In this document: one piece after another, positions 144 through 35,804 of the stretch
Layout: every line of letters starts with the position of its first letter
Numbering within the stretch: the first letter of the stretch is position 1
Assembly (NCBI RefSeq): GCF_001428685.1
Contig: NZ_LMIK01000001.1
Span: 7,966-71,965, forward strand
Direction: 5' to 3'
DNA: 64,000 nt
From: Lysobacter sp. Root76
Lineage (GTDB): Bacteria; Pseudomonadota; Gammaproteobacteria; Xanthomonadales; Xanthomonadaceae
Translations under genes and position numbers: made by a program
Notes under the pieces: model-generated
The model's input: the letters and a program-made list of their open reading frames with translations, nothing else
Database searches by the model: none
Told to the model about the DNA's origin: nothing

Positions 144-203
144 GTCTAACGCCTGAATTAAGCCGAGCCGCGAAGCGGCTTCGGCTTGAATGAATTGTTA
201 GGC
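144..203 (-). repeat. attC site of cassette 6
   Basis: A 60-bp imperfect palindrome bounded by GTCTAAC (144-150) and GTTAGGC (197-203), matching the RYYYAAC...GTTRRRY boundaries of integron attC sites. The centre folds as a strong hairpin (GCCGAGCCGC paired with GCGGCTTCGGC). It is almost identical to five other copies at 507, 1061, 1491, 1891 and 2348; the one boundary change is GTC for GCC. Confidence 0.92.
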
Positions 204-503
204 CTCATCGTCGTCCCCCTCGTTGTCCGGGTAGAATACGTGACCGTCGTTTTTGAAGAATATGTTCCGGAACCAAGGGGATTGCCAGACTTCTTCAATG
301 TGGATGGTCGGTGCCGCGCCTTGATTCCACGCGGAATACCGACCGGTGGTCCAAGCCGCGCCAATCATGGACAGTACCTTCTCCACTGCTTCGGCCTCGG
401 ACCGCGCACGAACTGCTCGGGTTGTGAAGAACCCGACCGCAGTTGAGTCTCCCATAGGGACCGAAATCCCTGTGCCTTCAACACGTACACGAAAGTAAGG
501 CAT
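198..503 (-). CDS. Integron cassette 6, hypothetical protein
   Basis: This codes for 101 residues with no signal peptide or membrane segment and an acidic tail (NEGDDDEA). The stop codon TAA lies inside the downstream attC site, as is usual for cassette genes. The ATG at 503 is only three bases from the preceding attC, so the only Shine-Dalgarno-like bases are the AGG within the attC end GTTAGGC. I do not recognise the family. The mixed alpha/beta sequence, rich in aromatic residues at the C-terminal half, suggests a small soluble protein. Confidence 0.75.
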   Translation of the reverse strand: MPYFRVRVEGTGISVPMGDSTAVGFFTTRAVRARSEAEAVEKVLSMIGAAWTTGRYSAWNQGAAPTIHIEEVWQSPWFRNIFFKNDGHVFYPDNEGDDDEA

Positions 504-506
504 GAG

Positions 507-566
507 GCCTAACGCCTGAATTAAGCCGAGCCGCGAAGCGGCTTCGGCTTGAATGAATTGTTAGGC
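507..566 (-). repeat. attC site of cassette 5
   Basis: A 60-bp site with GCCTAAC (507-513) and GTTAGGC (560-566) as its ends and the same hairpin core as the other five copies. Confidence 0.93.
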
Positions 567-1025
567 CTCAGCCCGATTACCTTGACTGCGCCACAGCGAG
601 AGGACCAGACCAACGATCATGGCGGCGAGGAGGACAAGGTTGACGAGGTATCCTTTTGATCCCTCGAGCTTAGCGATAGGCAAAAAGACAAAAATCAGCT
701 TTCTGCTCAGATGCTCTGTTAGTAGCAGCGCAAGAATGAATGGAACCATGTTGCGGTAGCGTACCAATATCAGCACAGATAGCGCGCCGAAGATGAATAC
801 AGATAACCCCCATGCCGCGAACATAGAGACTACGGCCTGAGCTCCGGCAGACGTGTAATTGGCGAGGGGAATCCCATCAGCCGCAGTCGCGACGTAGTAG
901 CCGTTGAAGATGCAGTTCAGACCCATCACGATCTTGCTGAGCGCAAGGAACCCCAAGAGCCAAAGTGCAAATTTTTGGCCGTGGTACGTGTTGTCAAAGC
1001 GCTGAGGAAGAAGGTCGTTGAACAT
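561..1025 (-). CDS. Integron cassette 5, four-helix membrane protein
   Basis: The protein has about 154 residues and four hydrophobic segments (FALWLLGFLALSKIVMGL; AVVSMFAAWGLSVFIFGALS; a third around MVPFILALLLTEHL; and YLVNLVLLAAMIVGLVLSL), so it should sit in the inner membrane. I chose ATG at 1025 (MFNDLLPQ...) because GGAG lies about eight bases upstream; an in-frame ATG at 1046 would add seven residues. The TAA stop lies inside the attC site. The function is unknown; small membrane proteins are common integron cargo. Confidence 0.75.
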   Translation of the reverse strand: MFNDLLPQRFDNTYHGQKFALWLLGFLALSKIVMGLNCIFNGYYVATAADGIPLANYTSAGAQAVVSMFAAWGLSVFIFGALSVLILVRYRNMVPFILALLLTEHLSRKLIFVFLPIAKLEGSKGYLVNLVLLAAMIVGLVLSLWRSQGNRAEA

Positions 1026-1060
1026 GTTGTTCTCCGGTACCGGCATACGGCTTGTCTGAG

Positions 1061-1120
1061 GCCTAACGCCTGAATTAAGCCGAGCCGCGAAGCGGCTTCG
1101 GCTTGAATGAATTGTTAGGT
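1061..1120 (-). repeat. attC site of cassette 4
   Basis: A 60-bp site with ends GCCTAAC (1061-1067) and GTTAGGT (1114-1120) and the same hairpin core as the other copies. Confidence 0.93.
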
Positions 1121-1486
1121 TGCGTCACGTGACTGTCTGAGTGCAACTCGATTGATGACGAAGGCAACCAGCTCATAAGCCAAGCACCAGAAACCAATAC
1201 CCCCGAGAGCCATCCAGCCACCGGCAGCATTGGCACTGCAGTGGAACCCGAGCAGGCAACGCCCGACATGGACTAGGCCGGAGGCAGCAAGTGCTATTGC
1301 TGTGACGCCGGCCGTGGCCAACAAGAGATAAGCCGCGCACTGACCGGCATTGGAACGTAAAGCCCAGGCATTTCGGCGCAGATGAGTCCACAGACGAATT
1401 GGAAGCGCAGTGACGGCAACGAAGCCCAGCGCGCCAAGCCCATAGAAGACGGAAAAGTATGTTGAAACTTCTAGTGATCTCACCAT
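1115..1486 (-). CDS. Integron cassette 4, hypothetical membrane protein
   Basis: This encodes 123 residues with three or four hydrophobic stretches (FYGLGALGFVAVTALPI; AAYLLLATAGVTAIALAASG; MALGGIGFWCLAYELVAFVI), indicating an integral membrane protein. The ATG is four bases after the attC boundary (GTTAGGT TGTT ATG) and the stop lies in the next attC. No family is recognised. Confidence 0.75.
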   Translation of the reverse strand: MVRSLEVSTYFSVFYGLGALGFVAVTALPIRLWTHLRRNAWALRSNAGQCAAYLLLATAGVTAIALAASGLVHVGRCLLGFHCSANAAGGWMALGGIGFWCLAYELVAFVINRVALRQSRDAT

Positions 1487-1490
1487 AACA

Positions 1491-1550
1491 ACCTAACGCC
1501 TGAATTAAGCCGAGCCGCGAAGCGGCTTCGGCTTGAATGAATTGTTAGGC
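1491..1550 (-). repeat. attC site of cassette 3
   Basis: A 60-bp site with ends ACCTAAC (1491-1497) and GTTAGGC (1544-1550) and the same hairpin core. Confidence 0.93.
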
Positions 1551-1551
1551 C

Positions 1552-1887
1552 TCAGCCGCTAACCCGGAGAGCAAGAGCCGACTGATAGACCTTTCCGGAA
1601 AGTGTATCAATGAGTTCCATGCCCGGTAGCAGCCCGTAGGTGCCGTCGGATCGTTGTGTCACCGGGGCATAGTCATTGAAGCTGCCCATGCCTCCATAAA
1701 CCGACATAGTTGAGCCCGAAAGCTCATTGAGCTGCTGCTGAGTGAAGCCATGGCTAAGCAGGTGGTTGGCAATGGAAAGGCAGCTCTCAAAATGCCGCCG
1801 CCAAGCGCACACAGGATCTCGAGACAGGACGGCTACGAGCTGGTCCAGATGTGCTTCCAAAGTCTCCAACTGCAGATGACGTTCCAT
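1552..1887 (-). CDS. Integron cassette 3, small soluble hypothetical protein
   Basis: This encodes 111 residues that look soluble. The N-terminal half is helical (ETLEAHLDQLVAVL...), followed by a Gly-rich motif YGGMGSFNDYAP. Similar YGGMGSFND motifs occur, as I recall, in a small uncharacterised family often found in cassettes; that link is from memory only. The ATG lies three bases from the attC end and TGA sits one base before the next attC. The function is unknown. Confidence 0.75.
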   Translation of the reverse strand: MERHLQLETLEAHLDQLVAVLSRDPVCAWRRHFESCLSIANHLLSHGFTQQQLNELSGSTMSVYGGMGSFNDYAPVTQRSDGTYGLLPGMELIDTLSGKVYQSALALRVSG

Positions 1888-1890
1888 GAG

Positions 1891-1950
1891 GCCTAACGCC
1901 TGAGTTAAGCCGAGCCGCGAAGCGGCTTCGGCTTGAATGAATTGTTAGGT
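1891..1950 (-). repeat. attC site of cassette 2
   Basis: A 60-bp site with ends GCCTAAC (1891-1897) and GTTAGGT (1944-1950). It differs from the other copies by one internal base (GAGTTAAG instead of GAATTAAG). Confidence 0.93.
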
Positions 1951-2349
1951 GGTAGCTGCGCGCTTGAGCGCCGACACCGGAAGAAGTGCCAACTTGCCAC
2001 AGGATTTGCAGAAGGCATCGGGACTATTCCACCAACGACGGTGAGTGACCAGCAAGTGCCGGCAGGACGGACACCGGAGCTGATGTGACGCTAGTACAGA
2101 CCATTGCAGTTGGCGAATAGCGAGAAGCGCAAGAAAAAAAGGGGCACCAGCAGTGAGAGGCCAAAGGTCATTGTGCAGGCCAAGGCGCGGGAGCACTAAG
2201 AATGCAATTGCCAACCAGCCAGCGAGGAGGGTAGTGATTGCGATAAGGCCGCGGCGCAGCGAAGCTCGGGCGGCAATCTGGGTCGCCACGTCCTCTCGGC
2301 TGAACTGAATAAGCTCTTCCTTCACGATGCGATCCACTCTCTTTGCCAC
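1945..2349 (-). CDS. Integron cassette 2, membrane protein with a zinc-ribbon tail
   Basis: The product has 134 residues: a charged N-terminus, two transmembrane helices (LIAITTLLAGWLAIAFLVL and WPLTAGAPFFLALLAI), then a cytoplasmic tail with CPSC and CKSC pairs 20-odd residues apart, a treble-clef or zinc-ribbon arrangement. The only start that uses the whole frame is a GTG at 2349 that overlaps the attC boundary by two bases; an internal GTG a few codons later (VDRIV) is possible. The function is unknown. Confidence 0.7.
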   Translation of the reverse strand: MAKRVDRIVKEELIQFSREDVATQIAARASLRRGLIAITTLLAGWLAIAFLVLPRLGLHNDLWPLTAGAPFFLALLAIRQLQWSVLASHQLRCPSCRHLLVTHRRWWNSPDAFCKSCGKLALLPVSALKRAATT

Positions 2350-2407
2350 CTAACGCCTGAATTAAGCCGAGCCGCGAAGCGGCTTCGGCTTGAATGAATT
2401 GTTAGGC
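2348..2407 (-). repeat. attC site of cassette 1
   Basis: A 60-bp site with ends ACCTAAC (2348-2354) and GTTAGGC (2401-2407). It is the attC nearest the integrase gene. Confidence 0.93.
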
Positions 2408-2558: not shown

Positions 2559-3407
2559 AACGGCAACCGACACCCACGCGAATTAGGCGGTAAGGAAATC
2601 GAATACTTCTTGAGCGATCTGGCCCAGCGGCATCGAGTTGCCCCTAGTACCCAGAACCAGGCCTTGGCCGCCCTGCTGTTCTTGTACCGGGAGGTGCTGG
2701 CCCTGGATTTGCCATGGATGGAGAACATAGTCCGGGCCAAACAGGCGCCGCGTTTGCCGGTAGTGCTGTCGCGCGCCGAAACCATGGCCCTGTTGCGCAC
2801 GATGTCGGGTCGTGAAGCCTTGATGGCCGGCCTGCTTTATGGCAGCGGATTGCGGCTGATGGAATGCCTGCGCCTGAGGATGAAGGATGTGGACCTGGTC
2901 CGCCACGAGATCACCGTGCGCGAGGGCAAGGGCGGCAAGGACCGCAAGACCATGCTGCCGGAACGGTTACGGCCGGCACTGCAGGCGCAGATCGACTGCG
3001 CGCGGGCACAGCATGCTCGGGATCTGGAAGCCGGGTTCGGGGCGGTTTCCCTTCCTTACGCACTGGCCCGCAAATACCGCAACGCGGAGAAGGAACCAGG
3101 TTGGCAGTATGTGTTCCCTGCTGCACGCCGGGCGGCGGATCCTGCTGACGGACACGAGAAGCGCCACCACTTGGACGAAGGCGTGCTGCAACGGGCGGTG
3201 CGTGCCGCTGCGCGGGCGGCCGGCATCCTCAAGCCGGTCAGCCCGCATACCCTGAGACATTGTTTCGCCACTCATCTACTGGAAGGCGGTGCCGACATCC
3301 GCACAGTGCAGGAACTGCTGGGCCACAAGGACGTGACCACCACACAAATCTATACGCACGTTCTGAACCGCGGCACGGTCGGTGTGCTGAGTCCTCTGGA
3401 CCGCTAG
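2559..3407 (+). pseudogene. intI: Integron integrase, 5'-truncated
   Basis: Similarity to IntI tyrosine recombinases begins abruptly at NGNRHPRELGG (about 2559) and continues to the natural C-terminus (GVLSPLDR, TAG at 3405). The catalytic domain looks intact: Arg in GSGLRLMECL, the IntI-specific insertion around LPYALARKYRNAEKEPGWQ, HTLRHCFATH, GHKDVTTT and the nucleophile Tyr in IYTHV. Integron integrases are about 320-340 residues; here the N-terminal 45-50 residues (part of the DNA-clamping domain) are missing in all frames and a stop lies at 2547. A TTG at 2610 could start a 265-residue product, but recombination by it is doubtful. The gene diverges from the cassettes, the standard integron layout. 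Confidence 0.85.
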
Positions 3408-31101: not shown

Positions 31102-31905
31102 TCAGCCGGAAAAATACCCCGCCACTCCAGCGGCGATGGCGGTGCGCAAAGGGTTGTCGGGGTCCGACAACAGCTTCACGGTAAGGGCGAGACAGATCGT
31201 CACCAGCACCGGCCGCACCGCGCGCGCGCCGAAGCGCATCGCGGCATGCGCGCCGACCTGGCCGCCGGCGACGCTGGCCAGCGCCATCGCCAGTCCGACC
31301 GCCCACAGCACGTGCCCGCCGACGATCATCACCGTCAGCGCGGCCAGATTGCTGGCCAGGTTGAAGAACTTGGTCTGCGCGGTCGCGCGCACCACGCCCA
31401 GGCCGCCCAGCGCGACCAGGGTGGTCGCCATGAAAGAGCCGGTGCCGGGGCCGAAGAAACCGTCGTAGACGCCGATCAGCGCGATCAGCGCCGCCAGTGC
31501 GAGCGGACCGACGCGCTGGTGGCTGTCCTCGTCGCTCATGCGCGGCGCAAGCAGGAAATACACCGCCATCGCGATCAGCAACAAGGGAATCACGCCACTG
31601 AGGAACGAGGGGTCCAGCCTTTGCAGCAACCAGGCGCCGCCCGCCGAGCCGACGAACGCGCCGGCCGCGGGCAAGGCGTAGCGCCGGAAATCGATATGCC
31701 CCTTGCGCGCGAATGCGATCACCGCGCTGGACGTACCGATCGCGCTTTGCAGCTTGTTGGTGGCGATCGCCGCGACCGGCGGAATGCCCACGGCCATCAG
31801 CGCCGGGATGGTCAGCAGCCCCCCGCCGCCGGCGAGCGCGTCGATGGCGCCGGCGACGAAGGCCACGGCCATCAGGAAGGCGATCGCCTCCAGCGAGAAC
31901 TCCAT
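31102..31905 (-). CDS. TauE/SafE-family membrane permease
   Basis: This is a 267-residue protein with about eight hydrophobic segments and the duplicated family motifs: GAIDALAGGGGLLTIPAL with ATNKLQSAIG in the first half and GVYDGFFGPGTGSFM with AQTKFFNLASN in the second. TauE/SafE proteins are proposed to export sulfite, sulfoacetate or other small organic anions. It has the normal length and ends without obvious operon partners. Specific substrate is unknown. Confidence 0.92.
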   Translation of the reverse strand: MEFSLEAIAFLMAVAFVAGAIDALAGGGGLLTIPALMAVGIPPVAAIATNKLQSAIGTSSAVIAFARKGHIDFRRYALPAAGAFVGSAGGAWLLQRLDPSFLSGVIPLLLIAMAVYFLLAPRMSDEDSHQRVGPLALAALIALIGVYDGFFGPGTGSFMATTLVALGGLGVVRATAQTKFFNLASNLAALTVMIVGGHVLWAVGLAMALASVAGGQVGAHAAMRFGARAVRPVLVTICLALTVKLLSDPDNPLRTAIAAGVAGYFSG

Positions 31906-32031
31906 GCGCGACCGACCTGAGCAAGGGCGCTCATTGTCTCCGCTGCGCGCCGGGAATGGAAAGGCCGTGAGCGCCGGACGCAGGGATGTCGCCGCGGCCT
32001 TCAGCCGCGCAGCGACGATCGGCGCTATCGC

Positions 32032-32274
32032 CTAGGCCGGCTCGCGGTGCGTGACCACCAACTGGACCGCGTCGCCGCCGCGGTAATCGTCCGGCTCCAG
32101 GCGATAGGCGATGCGTACCCGCGCCGGCGGCGCGTCGCCGTTCCAGCCGCCGAACTCGATCGCGTTGAGGCGCCGGCCCTGGTGGCCGAGTTCGAGCTTG
32201 AGGTGGCGTTCGCCGACCACGCGCCAGCCCAGCACCGGAAACTCGCCGTCGAACTGCGGCTCCGGGAACTCCTG
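32032..32274 (-). pseudogene. Displaced original 3' end of recJ
   Basis: Reading from 32274, the frame gives QEFPEPQFDGEFPVLGW, then VVGERHLKLEL and LEPDDYRGGDAVQLVV, ending in TAG at 32032. This is the RecJ C-terminal domain and matches the end of the present recJ (FPEPTFHVNSEVLSF...KLEPDDYRGGEAIQL) at similar spacing. Its GC-rich codon use fits the rest of the chromosome, whereas the end now attached to recJ does not. It has no start codon and lies directly after the stop of the metallopeptidase gene, in the same frame. Confidence 0.88.
32257..32274 (-). repeat. Direct repeat at the downstream boundary of the recJ insertion
   Basis: CAGGAGTTCCCGGAGCCG on the minus strand; the copy inside recJ is CAGGGCTTCCCGGAGCCG (16 of 18 identical, 12 contiguous). 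It encodes Q(E/G)FPEP of RecJ and marks one end of the insertion. Confidence 0.8.
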
Positions 32275-32286
32275 ACTGGAGACGTC

Positions 32287-33360
32287 TCAGCGAACGATTC
32301 GCAATTTTGGTCGCTCAAGTTGAGCGGCGCGCCTCACGTCGTATAGCTCGCCCAAGCGTTCCGGCAAGAACATTATTGCCGCAGCAAAATCCTCTTCTGA
32401 AAACTCCAGCTCAGAGAAGAAGTGTTGAATCATCATAGGGAATAGTGTCGGCTGTTCCTTGGCGATAGCCGCTGGCTCTGCCTTGCGAATCCCGAGCTTG
32501 TTCATCTGGATGTATAGCCACTTCTTCTGGTTGTCATCAATCTTCCCGAGCGCATGCGCCTTCATCACAAGCATTGCGATCGAAACACCCCAGTACTCCT
32601 TCAGCGGAAGGTAACTTTGCAGTCGCGAGGCAGTTGACCGCGATAAGTCAGGTGCAATTTCTTCCGAGGGAACCAAGAACTCGGAAGCAAATTCATCCGC
32701 CTCGTCCTCCATGGAGGGGCGCGGTATGTCGTGCATGATCAGATGCGCGAGCTCGTGCGCCAACGTGAATCGCCAGCGATCACCCGGCACGCTTCGGTCG
32801 ATAAAAATGATCGGCGGAAGCTCAGCCAATTGAATGCACGTAGCATCCATCGGCACGCCATCAAAGTCACATTCGATTACAAGTACACCTGCACCTTCCA
32901 GCAATTTCGTGAGGTTACGAATCGGCCCACTCGGGCAGCCCCATGCAGCCCTCAGTGCACGCGCACAAGCTGTTGGAGTTCCGTAATCATCCAAGCTCAA
33001 CTTGGGCAACGGCCGCGATTGTTGAACATCGATGTGATCGAGCATCCGTCGGACGTGAATCCGAAGGACATTGACGATCCCAGATACCTTACGTCGCTCG
33101 GAAGCTTTGAGCTGGCGCGTCCGCGTAAAAACGGAGCTACTGCCATAACTAAACCGCTGCTCGGGAAGAAAGAAGAAGTCCTTGGGAAACCCAAGGACTT
33201 TCGAAATCTCTTCCATTTCGCTGACATCAAGGTCTGCGCCGGACCCTGCCTCGATCCTCGCAACTCGCGGCTGTTTCATTCCAGCAGCAGAGGCTAGTTC
33301 CTCTTGAGTCAGGCCGCGATACTCACGCGCTAGAATCACCATTTCCGGATTGGGTTTCAT
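32287..33360 (-). CDS. HTH (XRE) protein with ImmA/IrrE-type zinc metallopeptidase domain
   Basis: The 357-residue product has a Cro/CI-type helix-turn-helix at residues 7-60 (LTQEELASAAGMKQPRVARIEAG) and an ImmA/IrrE (COG2856) peptidase with HELAH at 202-206 followed by the acidic segment EDEADEFASEFLVP that supplies the third zinc ligand. Family members cleave repressors or act as antitoxin or regulator in toxin-antitoxin-like pairs. ATG 33360 is preferred because AAGG lies just upstream; ATG 33408 would add 16 residues. It overlaps the upstream gene by 38 bp, so the two should be translationally coupled. Confidence 0.88.
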   Translation of the reverse strand: MKPNPEMVILAREYRGLTQEELASAAGMKQPRVARIEAGSGADLDVSEMEEISKVLGFPKDFFFLPEQRFSYGSSSVFTRTRQLKASERRKVSGIVNVLRIHVRRMLDHIDVQQSRPLPKLSLDDYGTPTACARALRAAWGCPSGPIRNLTKLLEGAGVLVIECDFDGVPMDATCIQLAELPPIIFIDRSVPGDRWRFTLAHELAHLIMHDIPRPSMEDEADEFASEFLVPSEEIAPDLSRSTASRLQSYLPLKEYWGVSIAMLVMKAHALGKIDDNQKKWLYIQMNKLGIRKAEPAAIAKEQPTLFPMMIQHFFSELEFSEEDFAAAIMFLPERLGELYDVRRAAQLERPKLRIVR

Positions 33361-33937
33361 TGCCTTTTTCCCGCCGCTTAGTGGTGATACTTGCACCACT
33401 CGGTTCATCTTGATTGTGATGGGCAGCGCCGAATAGGCTTACGACCTTCGTTTCGACAGCTTCTTCGTGCAACTCGGAAACCCACATGTTCGACTTCGGT
33501 CCAGACGGACAAATGAGTAACACGTTCTGGAGATTTCCAAGCACATCTTCTTCATAGCTCAGATCAAGGTTCACCGAGCGGGGAATCTCGTCGAGCTGTT
33601 GATGCGTTCGGAATTTCAGTACCTGCTGCGTCAGATGTCCCGCAGGCAATAGATCGCGGCCAACTTTCTTGAACCTGATTACGAACCCCACATCGAAAAC
33701 GAGCATCCATAAGTGGGCACGCTCTTCGAAGCGGACTCCTTCAGCCATGGCAGCAAAGAGCTTTGCGTGACTAAAGAAGTGGTCGTGGATGATGGACGCC
33801 TTGCTGCGCGTCGTATGGATTTTTCGCTGTTCCGGGGTGTATTTCCCGTAGTCCGCTACTGCTTGGAAAACCATTTGCCTCAGTCCGGGAAGGTACGGCG
33901 CTAAGGCTTCATGTACGACATCCGGCTGGATTTCCAT
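33323..33937 (-). CDS. Unknown partner protein of the HTH-ImmA/IrrE gene
   Basis: The 204-residue protein is soluble, with no signal peptide. Visible features are the segment TTRSKASIIHDHFFSHAKLF (residues about 40-60) with several His, an aromatic beta-rich middle (RAHLWMLVFDVGFVIRFKKVG), an LLICPSGP strand and a low-complexity polar tail. I do not recognise a named family. Start ATG 33937 has CAGGAC upstream; a TTG further upstream is the -35 box instead. The overlap with the downstream HTH-peptidase gene is like that of toxin-antitoxin operons, so it may be the toxin or effector. That is inference only. Confidence 0.75.
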   Translation of the reverse strand: MEIQPDVVHEALAPYLPGLRQMVFQAVADYGKYTPEQRKIHTTRSKASIIHDHFFSHAKLFAAMAEGVRFEERAHLWMLVFDVGFVIRFKKVGRDLLPAGHLTQQVLKFRTHQQLDEIPRSVNLDLSYEEDVLGNLQNVLLICPSGPKSNMWVSELHEEAVETKVVSLFGAAHHNQDEPSGASITTKRREKGNETQSGNGDSSA

Positions 33938-33966
33938 CGCGTCCTGACCACGGGGGATTAGGAGCC

Positions 33967-33994
33967 AGAATACACGCCCAACTTCCAGTGTCAA
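33967..33994 (-). promoter_or_regulatory. Promoter of the insertion's two-gene operon
   Basis: On the minus strand TTGACA (33994-33989) and TATTCT (33972-33967) are separated by 16 bases. An A/T-rich stretch directly upstream (AAGAAATGAATAAAATAAT) resembles an UP element. It begins about 20 bp after the recJ stop and ends 29 bp before the first gene, so the module has its own constitutive-looking promoter. Confidence 0.65.
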
Positions 33995-34016
33995 TTATTT
34001 TATTCATTTCTTATTC

Positions 34017-35804
34017 TCACCAACCTCCCGACGGCTTAGGCGAGTTCGCGGTGGACGGTACAAGGACGGGGCCTTCTGGCGGCGGGGAAGACCGGCGGTA
34101 GACGATGTTGAGCTGGATCGCTTCCCCGCCCCGGTAGTCATCCGGCTCAAGCTTGAATGCCACGAGGATGTGCTTCGGGGGAGGCACCCCGTCCCAGCCA
34201 TTGAATTGAATGGCGTTCAGCGGCTCCGCTCTCCCCTCCACTCGAAGCACTAGCTTCAGGTGCTTCTCGCCCAGAACTCGAAAGCTGAGCACCTCAGAGT
34301 TCACATGAAACGTCGGCTCCGGGAAGCCCTGCCCCCACGGCCCGCCGTCGCGCAGCGACTCGGCGCTGGCGCGGTCGAACTCGCCCGCGTCCAGTTCGCC
34401 GTCGCTGAGCACATCGGCCTGCAGCAGCTCGGGCGTGAGCATGGCGCCGGCGCAGCGTTCGAACGCGGCACGGAACGCCTCCAAGGCATCGCGGCGCAAG
34501 GACAGGCCGGCGGCCATGGCGTGACCGCCGAAGCGTTCGATCAGCTCGGGATGCCGCGCGGCCACATCGGCCAGCGCGTCGCGGATATGGAAGCCCGGGA
34601 TCGAGCGCGCCGAACCGCGCAAGGCATCGCTGCCGGGTTCGGCCGGCGCGAACGCGATCACCGGCCGGTGCAGGCGCTCCTTCATCTTCGAGGCGACCAG
34701 CCCGACCACGCCGGGATGCCAGTCCTCGTCGAACAGGCAAACGGCGAGCGGCGCATGCACCGAGTCCAGCGCGACCTTCGCGAAGGCGAGCGCGGCCTCG
34801 TCGGTCATCTGCTGCTGGACCGCACGGCGCTCGGCGTTGATCTCGTTGAGGCTGTGGGCGATCTCGCGCGCCTGGCCCGGGTCTTCGGTCAACAGGCATT
34901 CGATGCCCAGCGCCATGTCTTCGAGGCGGCCGGCGGCGTTCAGGCGCGGCGCCAGCGCGTAGCCGATGTCGCTGGCGGTGAGCCGGCGCTCGTCGCGCTG
35001 CGAGACTTCGATCAGCGCACGCAGTCCCGCCCCGCCCTGCCCGGCGCGCAGGCGGCGCAGGCCGGCCGCGACCAGGGCGCGGTTGTTGGCGTCCAGCGGC
35101 ACCAGATCGGCGACGGTGCCGACCGCGACCAGGTCCAGCAAGACCTGCAGGTCGGGGCCGTTGCCCTCGCAGCGACCCTGCTGGCGCAACACGCGGCGCA
35201 GCGCCAGCAATACGTAGAACATCACCCCGACCCCGGCCAGGGCCTTGCTCGGGAATGCGTCGCCGGGCAGGTTGGGATCGACGATGGCGTCCGCGGGCGG
35301 CAGCGTTTCGCCGGGCAGATGGTGGTCGGTGACCAGCACCTGCCAGCCGCGCGCCTTGGCCGCGGCGATGCCGGCATGGCAGGCGATGCCGTGATCGACG
35401 GTGACCAGCAGGTCCGGTTGCAGCGCTGCGAGTTCGGCCACCAGCGCCGGCGACAGGCCGTAGCCGTGGACCATGCGGTTGGGCACCGCATGCGAGACCC
35501 GGCGCGCGCCGAGCATGCGCAGGCCGCGCACGCCGACCGCGCAGGCGGTGGCGCCGTCGCAGTCGAAATCGCCGACCACGACGATGTGGCGGTCGCCGGC
35601 GATGGCGTCGGCGAGCAGGGTCGTGGCCGCGTCCAGCCCGCTCAATCCGTCCGGCGGCAACAACTGCGCCAGGCGCGGCTGGGCCTGTTCGATCGCGATC
35701 GCGCCGCGCGCGGCGTACACGCGGCGCAGCAGCGGCGACACGCTGTCGGGCCAGGCGCCGGGGTCGGCGATGGCGCGCCGCAGCAGGCGGGCGGCTTCGT
35801 TCAT
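34017..35804 (-). CDS. recJ: Single-stranded-DNA-specific exonuclease RecJ with a substituted C-terminus
   Basis: RecJ degrades single-stranded DNA 5' to 3' in recombination and repair. The 595-residue product has the DHH phosphoesterase motifs (VVGDFDCDGATA, VTVDHGIACH, TDHHLPG) and DHHA1 (GGHAMAAGLSL). Start ATG 35804 (MNEAARLLRRA) follows family similarity. From FPEP (residue about 497) onwards the coding sequence is lower in GC and ends in an unusual proline-rich tail (PPPEGPVLVPSTANSPKPSGGW region), because this part came with the insertion; the original end is at 32.0-32.3 kb. The enzyme is probably still functional since all catalytic motifs precede the junction. Confidence 0.96.
   Translation of the reverse strand: MNEAARLLRRAIADPGAWPDSVSPLLRRVYAARGAIAIEQAQPRLAQLLPPDGLSGLDAATTLLADAIAGDRHIVVVGDFDCDGATACAVGVRGLRMLGARRVSHAVPNRMVHGYGLSPALVAELAALQPDLLVTVDHGIACHAGIAAAKARGWQVLVTDHHLPGETLPPADAIVDPNLPGDAFPSKALAGVGVMFYVLLALRRVLRQQGRCEGNGPDLQVLLDLVAVGTVADLVPLDANNRALVAAGLRRLRAGQGGAGLRALIEVSQRDERRLTASDIGYALAPRLNAAGRLEDMALGIECLLTEDPGQAREIAHSLNEINAERRAVQQQMTDEAALAFAKVALDSVHAPLAVCLFDEDWHPGVVGLVASKMKERLHRPVIAFAPAEPGSDALRGSARSIPGFHIRDALADVAARHPELIERFGGHAMAAGLSLRRDALEAFRAAFERCAGAMLTPELLQADVLSDGELDAGEFDRASAESLRDGGPWGQGFPEPTFHVNSEVLSFRVLGEKHLKLVLRVEGRAEPLNAIQFNGWDGVPPPKHILVAFKLEPDDYRGGEAIQLNIVYRRSSPPPEGPVLVPSTANSPKPSGGW
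34314..34331 (-). repeat. Direct repeat at the upstream boundary of the recJ insertion
   Basis: CAGGGCTTCCCGGAGCCG inside recJ, coding QGFPEP, partner of the repeat at 32257-32274. Confidence 0.8.

Follow-up and report, generated by a model that had tools for sequence, protein, structure and literature searches.

An insertion of about 2 kb that replaces and restores the 3' end of recJ in Lysobacter, with no integrase recognised in its genes

We study here an insertion in recJ, the gene of a housekeeping exonuclease, which lies in a stretch of 64,000 nucleotides from Lysobacter sp. Root76 (contig NZ_LMIK01000001.1, positions 7,966 to 71,965). The whole stretch is called the window, and the positions given for it are counted from its first letter. 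On the minus strand of the window, where all the features of the locus lie, recJ is a hybrid of 595 codons (34017..35804), composed of a native body and a foreign 3' end that covers about the last 100 codons. The part of the foreign tail that can be aligned with other foreign tails is 34096..34313, with an extension (34017-34095) that is absent from the other foreign tails. The left breakpoint is the left copy of an 18-bp imperfect repeat (34314..34331, codons QGFPEP), and the right copy (32257..32274) is the beginning of a displaced native recJ tail (32032..32274), of which the reading frame is still open.

An earlier reading made from the letters of the window alone (the sequence-only reading) had claimed that the recJ C-terminus is present twice, as a lower-GC active copy and a GC-rich displaced copy about 2.06 kb apart, with the imperfect repeat at matching codons on both sides, and in all these points it was right. 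The Pfam family RecJ_OB is recognised in the complete gene (E 3.5e-18) as well as in the displaced piece (E 2.2e-9), so that the second C-terminus belongs to recJ and not to an unrelated OB-fold gene. The G+C fraction at third codon positions (GC3) is 0.92 in the recJ body, 0.74 in the active tail and 0.93 in the displaced tail. The F codons of the two tails, at 34325 (active) and 32268 (displaced), are spaced by 2,057 bp, and the repeat around them is identical at 16 of its 18 positions, with a longest run of 12. The two tails are 47% identical over 99 residues and fall into different clades. The reading frame of recJ is open to 34017, meaning that the gene is restored, with the direct repeat at both ends. 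It is confirmed that a 2-kb unit has inserted in recJ, replacing and restoring its 3' end.

Between the two tails lies, as had also been claimed, an overlapping gene pair, with an overlap of 38 bp: cargo gene 1 (33323..33937, minus strand, 204 residues, GC3 0.58) and cargo gene 2 (32287..33360, minus strand, 357 residues, GC3 0.59). As to the claim that the pair has its own promoter, a promoter-like site, TTGACA-16-TATTCT (33967..33994, minus strand), was found, and it is a match to the consensus only, with 2 such sites observed in 31900-34400 against 0.8 expected from shuffles. The claim that the unit encodes no integrase was borne out, since domain searches recognised no integrase domain, nor any other recombinase, in the two cargo genes.

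Cargo gene 2 has the Pfam domains HTH_3 (helix-turn-helix, HTH) and Peptidase_M78, the latter of the ImmA/IrrE protease type with a HELAH motif, and it matches 14 RmrA models of PADLOC (best E 2.7e-58), that is, it is an antitoxin of the RmrA type. In the RosmerTA systems, RmrA likewise has an HTH and an ImmA-type protease, and its partners vary (PMC10440598). Cargo gene 1 belongs to no recognised family: it matches none of the PADLOC families at E <= 1, the known RmrT partners included, and nothing near the cut-off in Pfam or NCBIfam. Its relatives were found in 4 other genomes among the 395 of the family sample (identities of 63, 48, 25 and 25%), and none in the viral contigs, plasmids or phages searched. 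All four relatives adjoin an RmrA-like gene (in the case of L029 as judged by eye) in differing surroundings, and because the pairing recurs in this way, gene 1 and RmrA are taken as a real module. Since gene 1 is paired with RmrA, it is read as a putative toxin, and because it matches no known RmrT while the known partners vary, we call the pair RosmerTA-like only. The pair resembles RosmerTA in that RmrA stands beside a partner without a known family, and differs from it in that gene 1 has no PADLOC model and that the known systems, in that source, are not described as lying in recJ (PMC10440598). The pair may act against phages and, at the same time, make it costly for the cell to lose the insert. 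For gene 1 an AlphaFold model was built on five sequences; its confidence (predicted local distance difference test, pLDDT) is 70.7, and nothing in the PDB matches it at E <= 0.001. A homing-endonuclease model exists for fungal mitochondrial genes whose C-termini have been swapped. It was considered here for gene 1 and set aside, with neither a nuclease family nor a PDB match in its support; the middling structural model neither shows nor excludes a nuclease.

Empty recJ sites, for which the sequence-only reading had suggested looking in relatives, occur in three relatives within the genus (L010, L011 and L012), each with one recJ tail. Their single tails are 89, 91 and 96% identical in protein, respectively, to the displaced tail of the window. 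In 78 codons, the displaced tail differs from that of L012 by 16 synonymous and 2 non-synonymous changes, and since so few changes are non-synonymous, the displaced tail was under selection until recently; therefore the insertion in the window looks young. Ten more genomes of the genus (L032-L041) have a native-type tail, with no convincing second copy in the stretch read. In the scan for second tails, short matches of 24-53% identity with E 3e-4 or weaker, such as those in L010 and L011, were attributed to chance; L023 also had a match of 8 residues at 87.5%, and L054 one of 13 residues at 62%.

The foreign tail itself is not confined to the window. When the tail of the window was compared with 297 genomes of the family, a match was found in 289, with locations listed for the best-scoring of these genomes, and 50 recJ loci were read individually. 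Six genomes, that of the window included, stand apart with a tail identity of at least 73%, the best other among the matches listed being 66%. Within the genus, a profile of the foreign tail gives 160-166 bits in 5 of 20 genomes and 88-103 bits in the other 15. The further carriers are L003, L004 (Lysobacter sp. cf310), L005 (L. antibioticus 13-6), L006 and L007 (L. psychrotolerans ZS60, classed as another genus in the genome collection). In each of these five the foreign tail type stands behind the genome's own recJ body, with four kinds of cargo other than that of the window: a 166-residue protein with a stretch read as membrane-spanning (L003), two small genes (L004), the same type of 82-residue protein (L005 and L006) and a DUF7674 protein (L007). 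L004 still has almost all of a displaced tail, with 92% identity to that of the window, and L007 has a piece of one. Thus other cargo does occur between or behind recJ ends in relatives, as had been envisaged from the window, and the existence of empty sites together with five further genomes having the same foreign tail type shows that the arrangement is more than chance.

The histories of tail and body were compared on trees. From 61 extracted loci, L024 gave no body and was dropped, and L050 was not placed on the tail tree because of a frameshift in its tail; the tail tree of 61 sequences has few columns and many forks that are not settled. On it the six foreign tails, including that of the window, form one clade (100/100, stem 0.91), and both displaced tails group with their genus. 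On the tree of the recJ body (1,050 bp, 24 loci), the six carriers require five changes, five being forced by well-supported branches, with the placement of L007 weak. Moreover, the tails of the window and L003 are 89% identical in protein while their bodies are 85% identical, and for L004 and L007 the corresponding values are 84% and 79%. The body and the tail of recJ have different histories, which suggests that the tail has spread horizontally.

No source of the tail closer than the carriers was met with in the order and class samples or in the pattern search of the genome collection. At the sensitivity used, no free tail was found in the phage collection; in the plasmid collection there were two recJ matches only, at 37-39%, and no free tail; and in the viral contigs there was one locus only, with an ordinary host-type recJ and no free tail. 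In this locus, L026 (IMGVR_UViG_2660237988_000001), the host-type recJ is at the contig edge, with neighbours read as filamentous-phage genes. Two exact peptide patterns, searched in the genome collection, gave 13 loci, of which three, at 79-87%, are the carriers L007, L004 and L005, and the remaining ten, at 49-61%, are recJ tails of Thermomonas and other relatives. The samples of the order and the class, each covering a part of its group, gave no closer donor: in the order sample 64 of 250 matched at E <= 1e-12, the best other than the own genome reaching 103 bits against 164, and in the class sample 4 of 274 matched at E <= 1e-14, the own genome included, the best other reaching 96 bits. 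G422, from another family (92 bits), was considered as a carrier across families and rejected, its tail being 65-72% identical to the native types against 54% to the foreign one.

Some other irregular recJ loci were seen in the course of this comparison. In Thermomonas sp. SJ789 (L019 12465-12560), a second recJ-tail fragment lies about 2.3 kb past recJ and is possibly a further displacement. In L050 (G065:C1), recJ is apparently frameshifted in the OB domain, at about codon 512. In two further stretches (G218:C22:104782-156927 and G230:C105:117165-169328), the halves of recJ lie about 50 kb apart, split near codon 232, and the stretches between them contain a complete divergent recJ, 34% identical, which looks like an element that inserted in recJ and brought its own recJ.

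We now consider the breakpoint. In five comparisons of a carrier with an empty relative (window/L012, window/L011, L004/L011, L003/L033 and L003/L037), the nucleotide identity over the 90 bp that precede the F codon is 0.91-0.97 and falls to 0.48-0.58 at +12..+102, while in the two native control pairs it stays level (0.90 to 0.88 and 0.86 to 0.87). The left breakpoint is at the same codons, W-G-Q-G/F-P (the slash marking the break), in three carriers that are separate on the body tree. On the right side, homology to L011 resumes at -6 in the window and at -21 in L004, and past the insert L004 is 93.5% identical to L011 across 4.5 kb. Both complete displaced tails, those of the window and L004, start at the WGQG/FP codons, as the foreign tails do, which is the arrangement that a single crossover of a circle with the chromosome would leave. 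In L003 the native tail is lost, and the sequence rejoins that of the empty relatives 327 bp past the breakpoint. Taken together, the junctions are fitted better by one crossover at a short core (WGQG/FP) than by ordinary allelic exchange.

On balance we lean towards the reading that the insert is a small mobile unit, with no recombinase recognised in it, that lives by C-terminal displacement of recJ. The moving form would be a DNA circle containing a short recJ core near WGQG/FP, a foreign 3' end and the cargo. A single crossover between the core of the circle and the matching codons of the resident recJ would insert the unit, upon which the resident body would be fused in frame with the foreign tail, keeping recJ whole, and the resident tail, cut at the same codons, would be shunted past the cargo and would then decay. 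The machinery may be RecA-independent or short-homology recombination, or a recombinase acting in trans. Because the foreign and the displaced tails have diverged, homologous recombination between the two should seldom remove the unit, and the putative toxin-antitoxin pair would add stability to the insert. The interpretation given in the sequence-only reading stands insofar as the insertion restores the recJ 3' end, empty sites and other cargo exist and no integrase is recognised, and neither of the two findings that it had named as contrary to it, a lack of empty sites in relatives and a second C-terminus from an unrelated gene, turned up; the two ways of movement that it offered, by a helper recombinase encoded elsewhere or by homologous recombination with the recJ end as a handle, are weighed below.

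Several points weigh against the displacement of recJ ends by a circle. In three of the six carriers (L003, L005 and L006) no displaced tail was found, and L007 has only a piece. The right junctions differ, with the 18-bp repeat in the window and about 8 extra bases before TTTCCC in L004. The breakpoint comparison was possible in three carriers only, and the block GGPWGQGF is the last strongly conserved stretch of recJ before the tail; because of this conservation, homology-driven crossovers would also gather at the breakpoint. Any of the five changes on the body tree may be a gain or a loss, and in 203 of 500 shuffles the carrier label was clustered at least as much; such a lack of clustering fits mobility and is not proof of it by itself. 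The collections of phages, plasmids and viral contigs and the pattern-searched genomes yielded neither a circle nor a free unit.

The best of the alternatives, which we nevertheless hold to be unlikely, is that a site-specific recombinase of a phage, an integrative element or the host acts in trans, with the recJ codons as attB and the core of the unit as attP, the unit being a non-autonomous element. With such a recombinase, the sharp left breakpoint common to three carriers and the direct repeats at both ends would be explained, as would the foreign 3' end that restores the frame, a feature also of integrative elements at gene ends. Moreover, the genome of the window contains seven genes with the domain PF00589, so that the search for an integrase, to which the sequence-only reading had pointed, did yield a list; however, none of the seven could be linked to the recJ site. 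In addition, the phage, plasmid, viral-contig, genome-pattern, order and class searches brought up no relative of the unit that carries a recombinase, and the right-hand cores of the window and L004 are unlike.

By contrast with both a circle and a recombinase in trans, the foreign end could have come in on linear carrier DNA by homologous recombination in recJ, with a second crossover downstream or an illegitimate far joint. L003, without a native tail and rejoining the empty relatives at +327, is what a double crossover would give, and the core lies within a conserved block. If the import were linear, it would be expected that the left breakpoints scatter along the recJ body, but the three lie at one spot, and that both complete displaced tails start at the breakpoint is a feature that linear import need not give. 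We consider this explanation improbable.

The window also contains an integron. At 144-2407 (minus strand) there are six nearly identical 60-bp attC sites, forming a cassette array, and at 2610-3407 there is the 3' part of an integron-integrase gene (PF00589), apparently without the N-terminal part, beside a gene read as acnB. The recJ insert of L004 (G015:C3) has integron cassettes far from an integron. Its attC is identical at 60 of 60 bases to that at 2348-2407 of the window, and it has also a broken second attC. Relatives of two other cargoes are flanked by attC sites elsewhere, namely the best relative of the L007 cargo (66%), which is in another genome, and a weak relative of the L003 cargo (31%, with a stop). 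The passengers of recJ overlap with the integron gene pool. The L075 relative of the L005 cargo was considered as a cassette and rejected, being cassette-like by eye and without a convincing attC in the scan. From the attC identity and the relatives of the L007 and L003 cargo, one could suppose that an integron integrase put gene cassettes behind recJ, the swap of the tail being a by-product. However, the scan found no attC in five of the six inserts, that of the window among them, the cassette arrangement being present in L004 only, and by the same kind of scan the relatives of the window cargo lie outside attC arrays. Moreover, the insertion of cassettes leaves the foreign tail unexplained, and we give this explanation very little credence.

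Finally, that one gene end is present in two copies, spaced by a few kb, could be due to a tandem duplication in which the copies diverged later, or to an artefact of assembly, but this can practically be dismissed, because the active tail lies outside the native clade while the displaced tail groups with the genus, and because the foreign tail recurs in six genomes.

Returning to the unit that displaces the recJ end by one crossover, the nearest known case is that of the rhs genes, whose displaced tips remain on the downstream side and for which it is proposed that a circle enters by one crossover in the core (Jackson et al. 2009, PMC2935791). As in rhs, a laterally acquired C-terminus takes the place of the resident one, which comes to lie downstream with other genes in between; the rhs genes, however, are large and encode polymorphic toxins, their conserved cores are long, and their dissociated tips lie in arrays (PMC2935791). 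By contrast, recJ is a housekeeping gene with a core of about 18-30 bp and at most one displaced tail seen, and the cargo of its unit has no functional tie to the tail. Because the gene is recJ, the unit works like rhs displacement without being a member of that group. Integrative elements that restore the 3' end of a gene, such as the phages targeting icd, encode an integrase. With these the recJ unit shares the foreign 3' end in frame, the displaced original opposite and the repeat at the crossover, but no integrase is recognised in it. When a restriction-modification system inserts with a long target duplication, the duplication is a copy of the target. The gene end on both sides of a small two-gene module is common to such an insertion and the recJ unit, whereas the two recJ tails are of different origin and not near-identical copies.

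The H47 island of E. coli has no integrase of its own and is 12.6 kb long, with repeats of 146/148 bp at 77% identity, natural empty sites and an excision that was seen by the polymerase chain reaction (PMC5426353). The lack of an own integrase, the imperfect direct repeats and the empty sites are shared with the recJ unit, while in that source the island is not described as restoring the 3' end of a gene (PMC5426353). For the sedentary integrons and CALINs of Xanthomonas, where attC clusters away from intI are reported, the main text of the source leaves recJ unmentioned (PMC12444791). Small passenger genes and the same bacterial family are points of likeness (PMC12444791), and the absence of attC from the insert of the window is a point of difference. 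No earlier description of the displacement of a recJ tail was found in the literature searched, which was mostly without subscription journals. What is new is the C-terminal displacement in a housekeeping gene with exchangeable cargo, the displacement itself being known from rhs.

More generally, and only tentatively, we suggest that a family of mobile units without a recombinase of their own circulates in Lysobacter, their passport being a diverged 3' end of recJ, which would be a landing pad and a rescue of the gene at once. It is equally tentative, as part of the same suggestion, that the tail evolves with the units and not with the hosts, and that any small gene set can ride. The riders would then include a toxin-antitoxin pair, integron-type genes and a DUF7674 protein. 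The empty sites, the conflicting histories of tail and body and the common breakpoint show a way in which small defence genes and orphan genes that lack a recombinase could be spread, through exchange of the last part of a conserved gene for DNA repair, and recJ offers a cleaner place than the rhs genes to catch the circle and the crossover enzyme. There is also a warning in it, that the last codons of a gene may differ in history from the rest of the gene.

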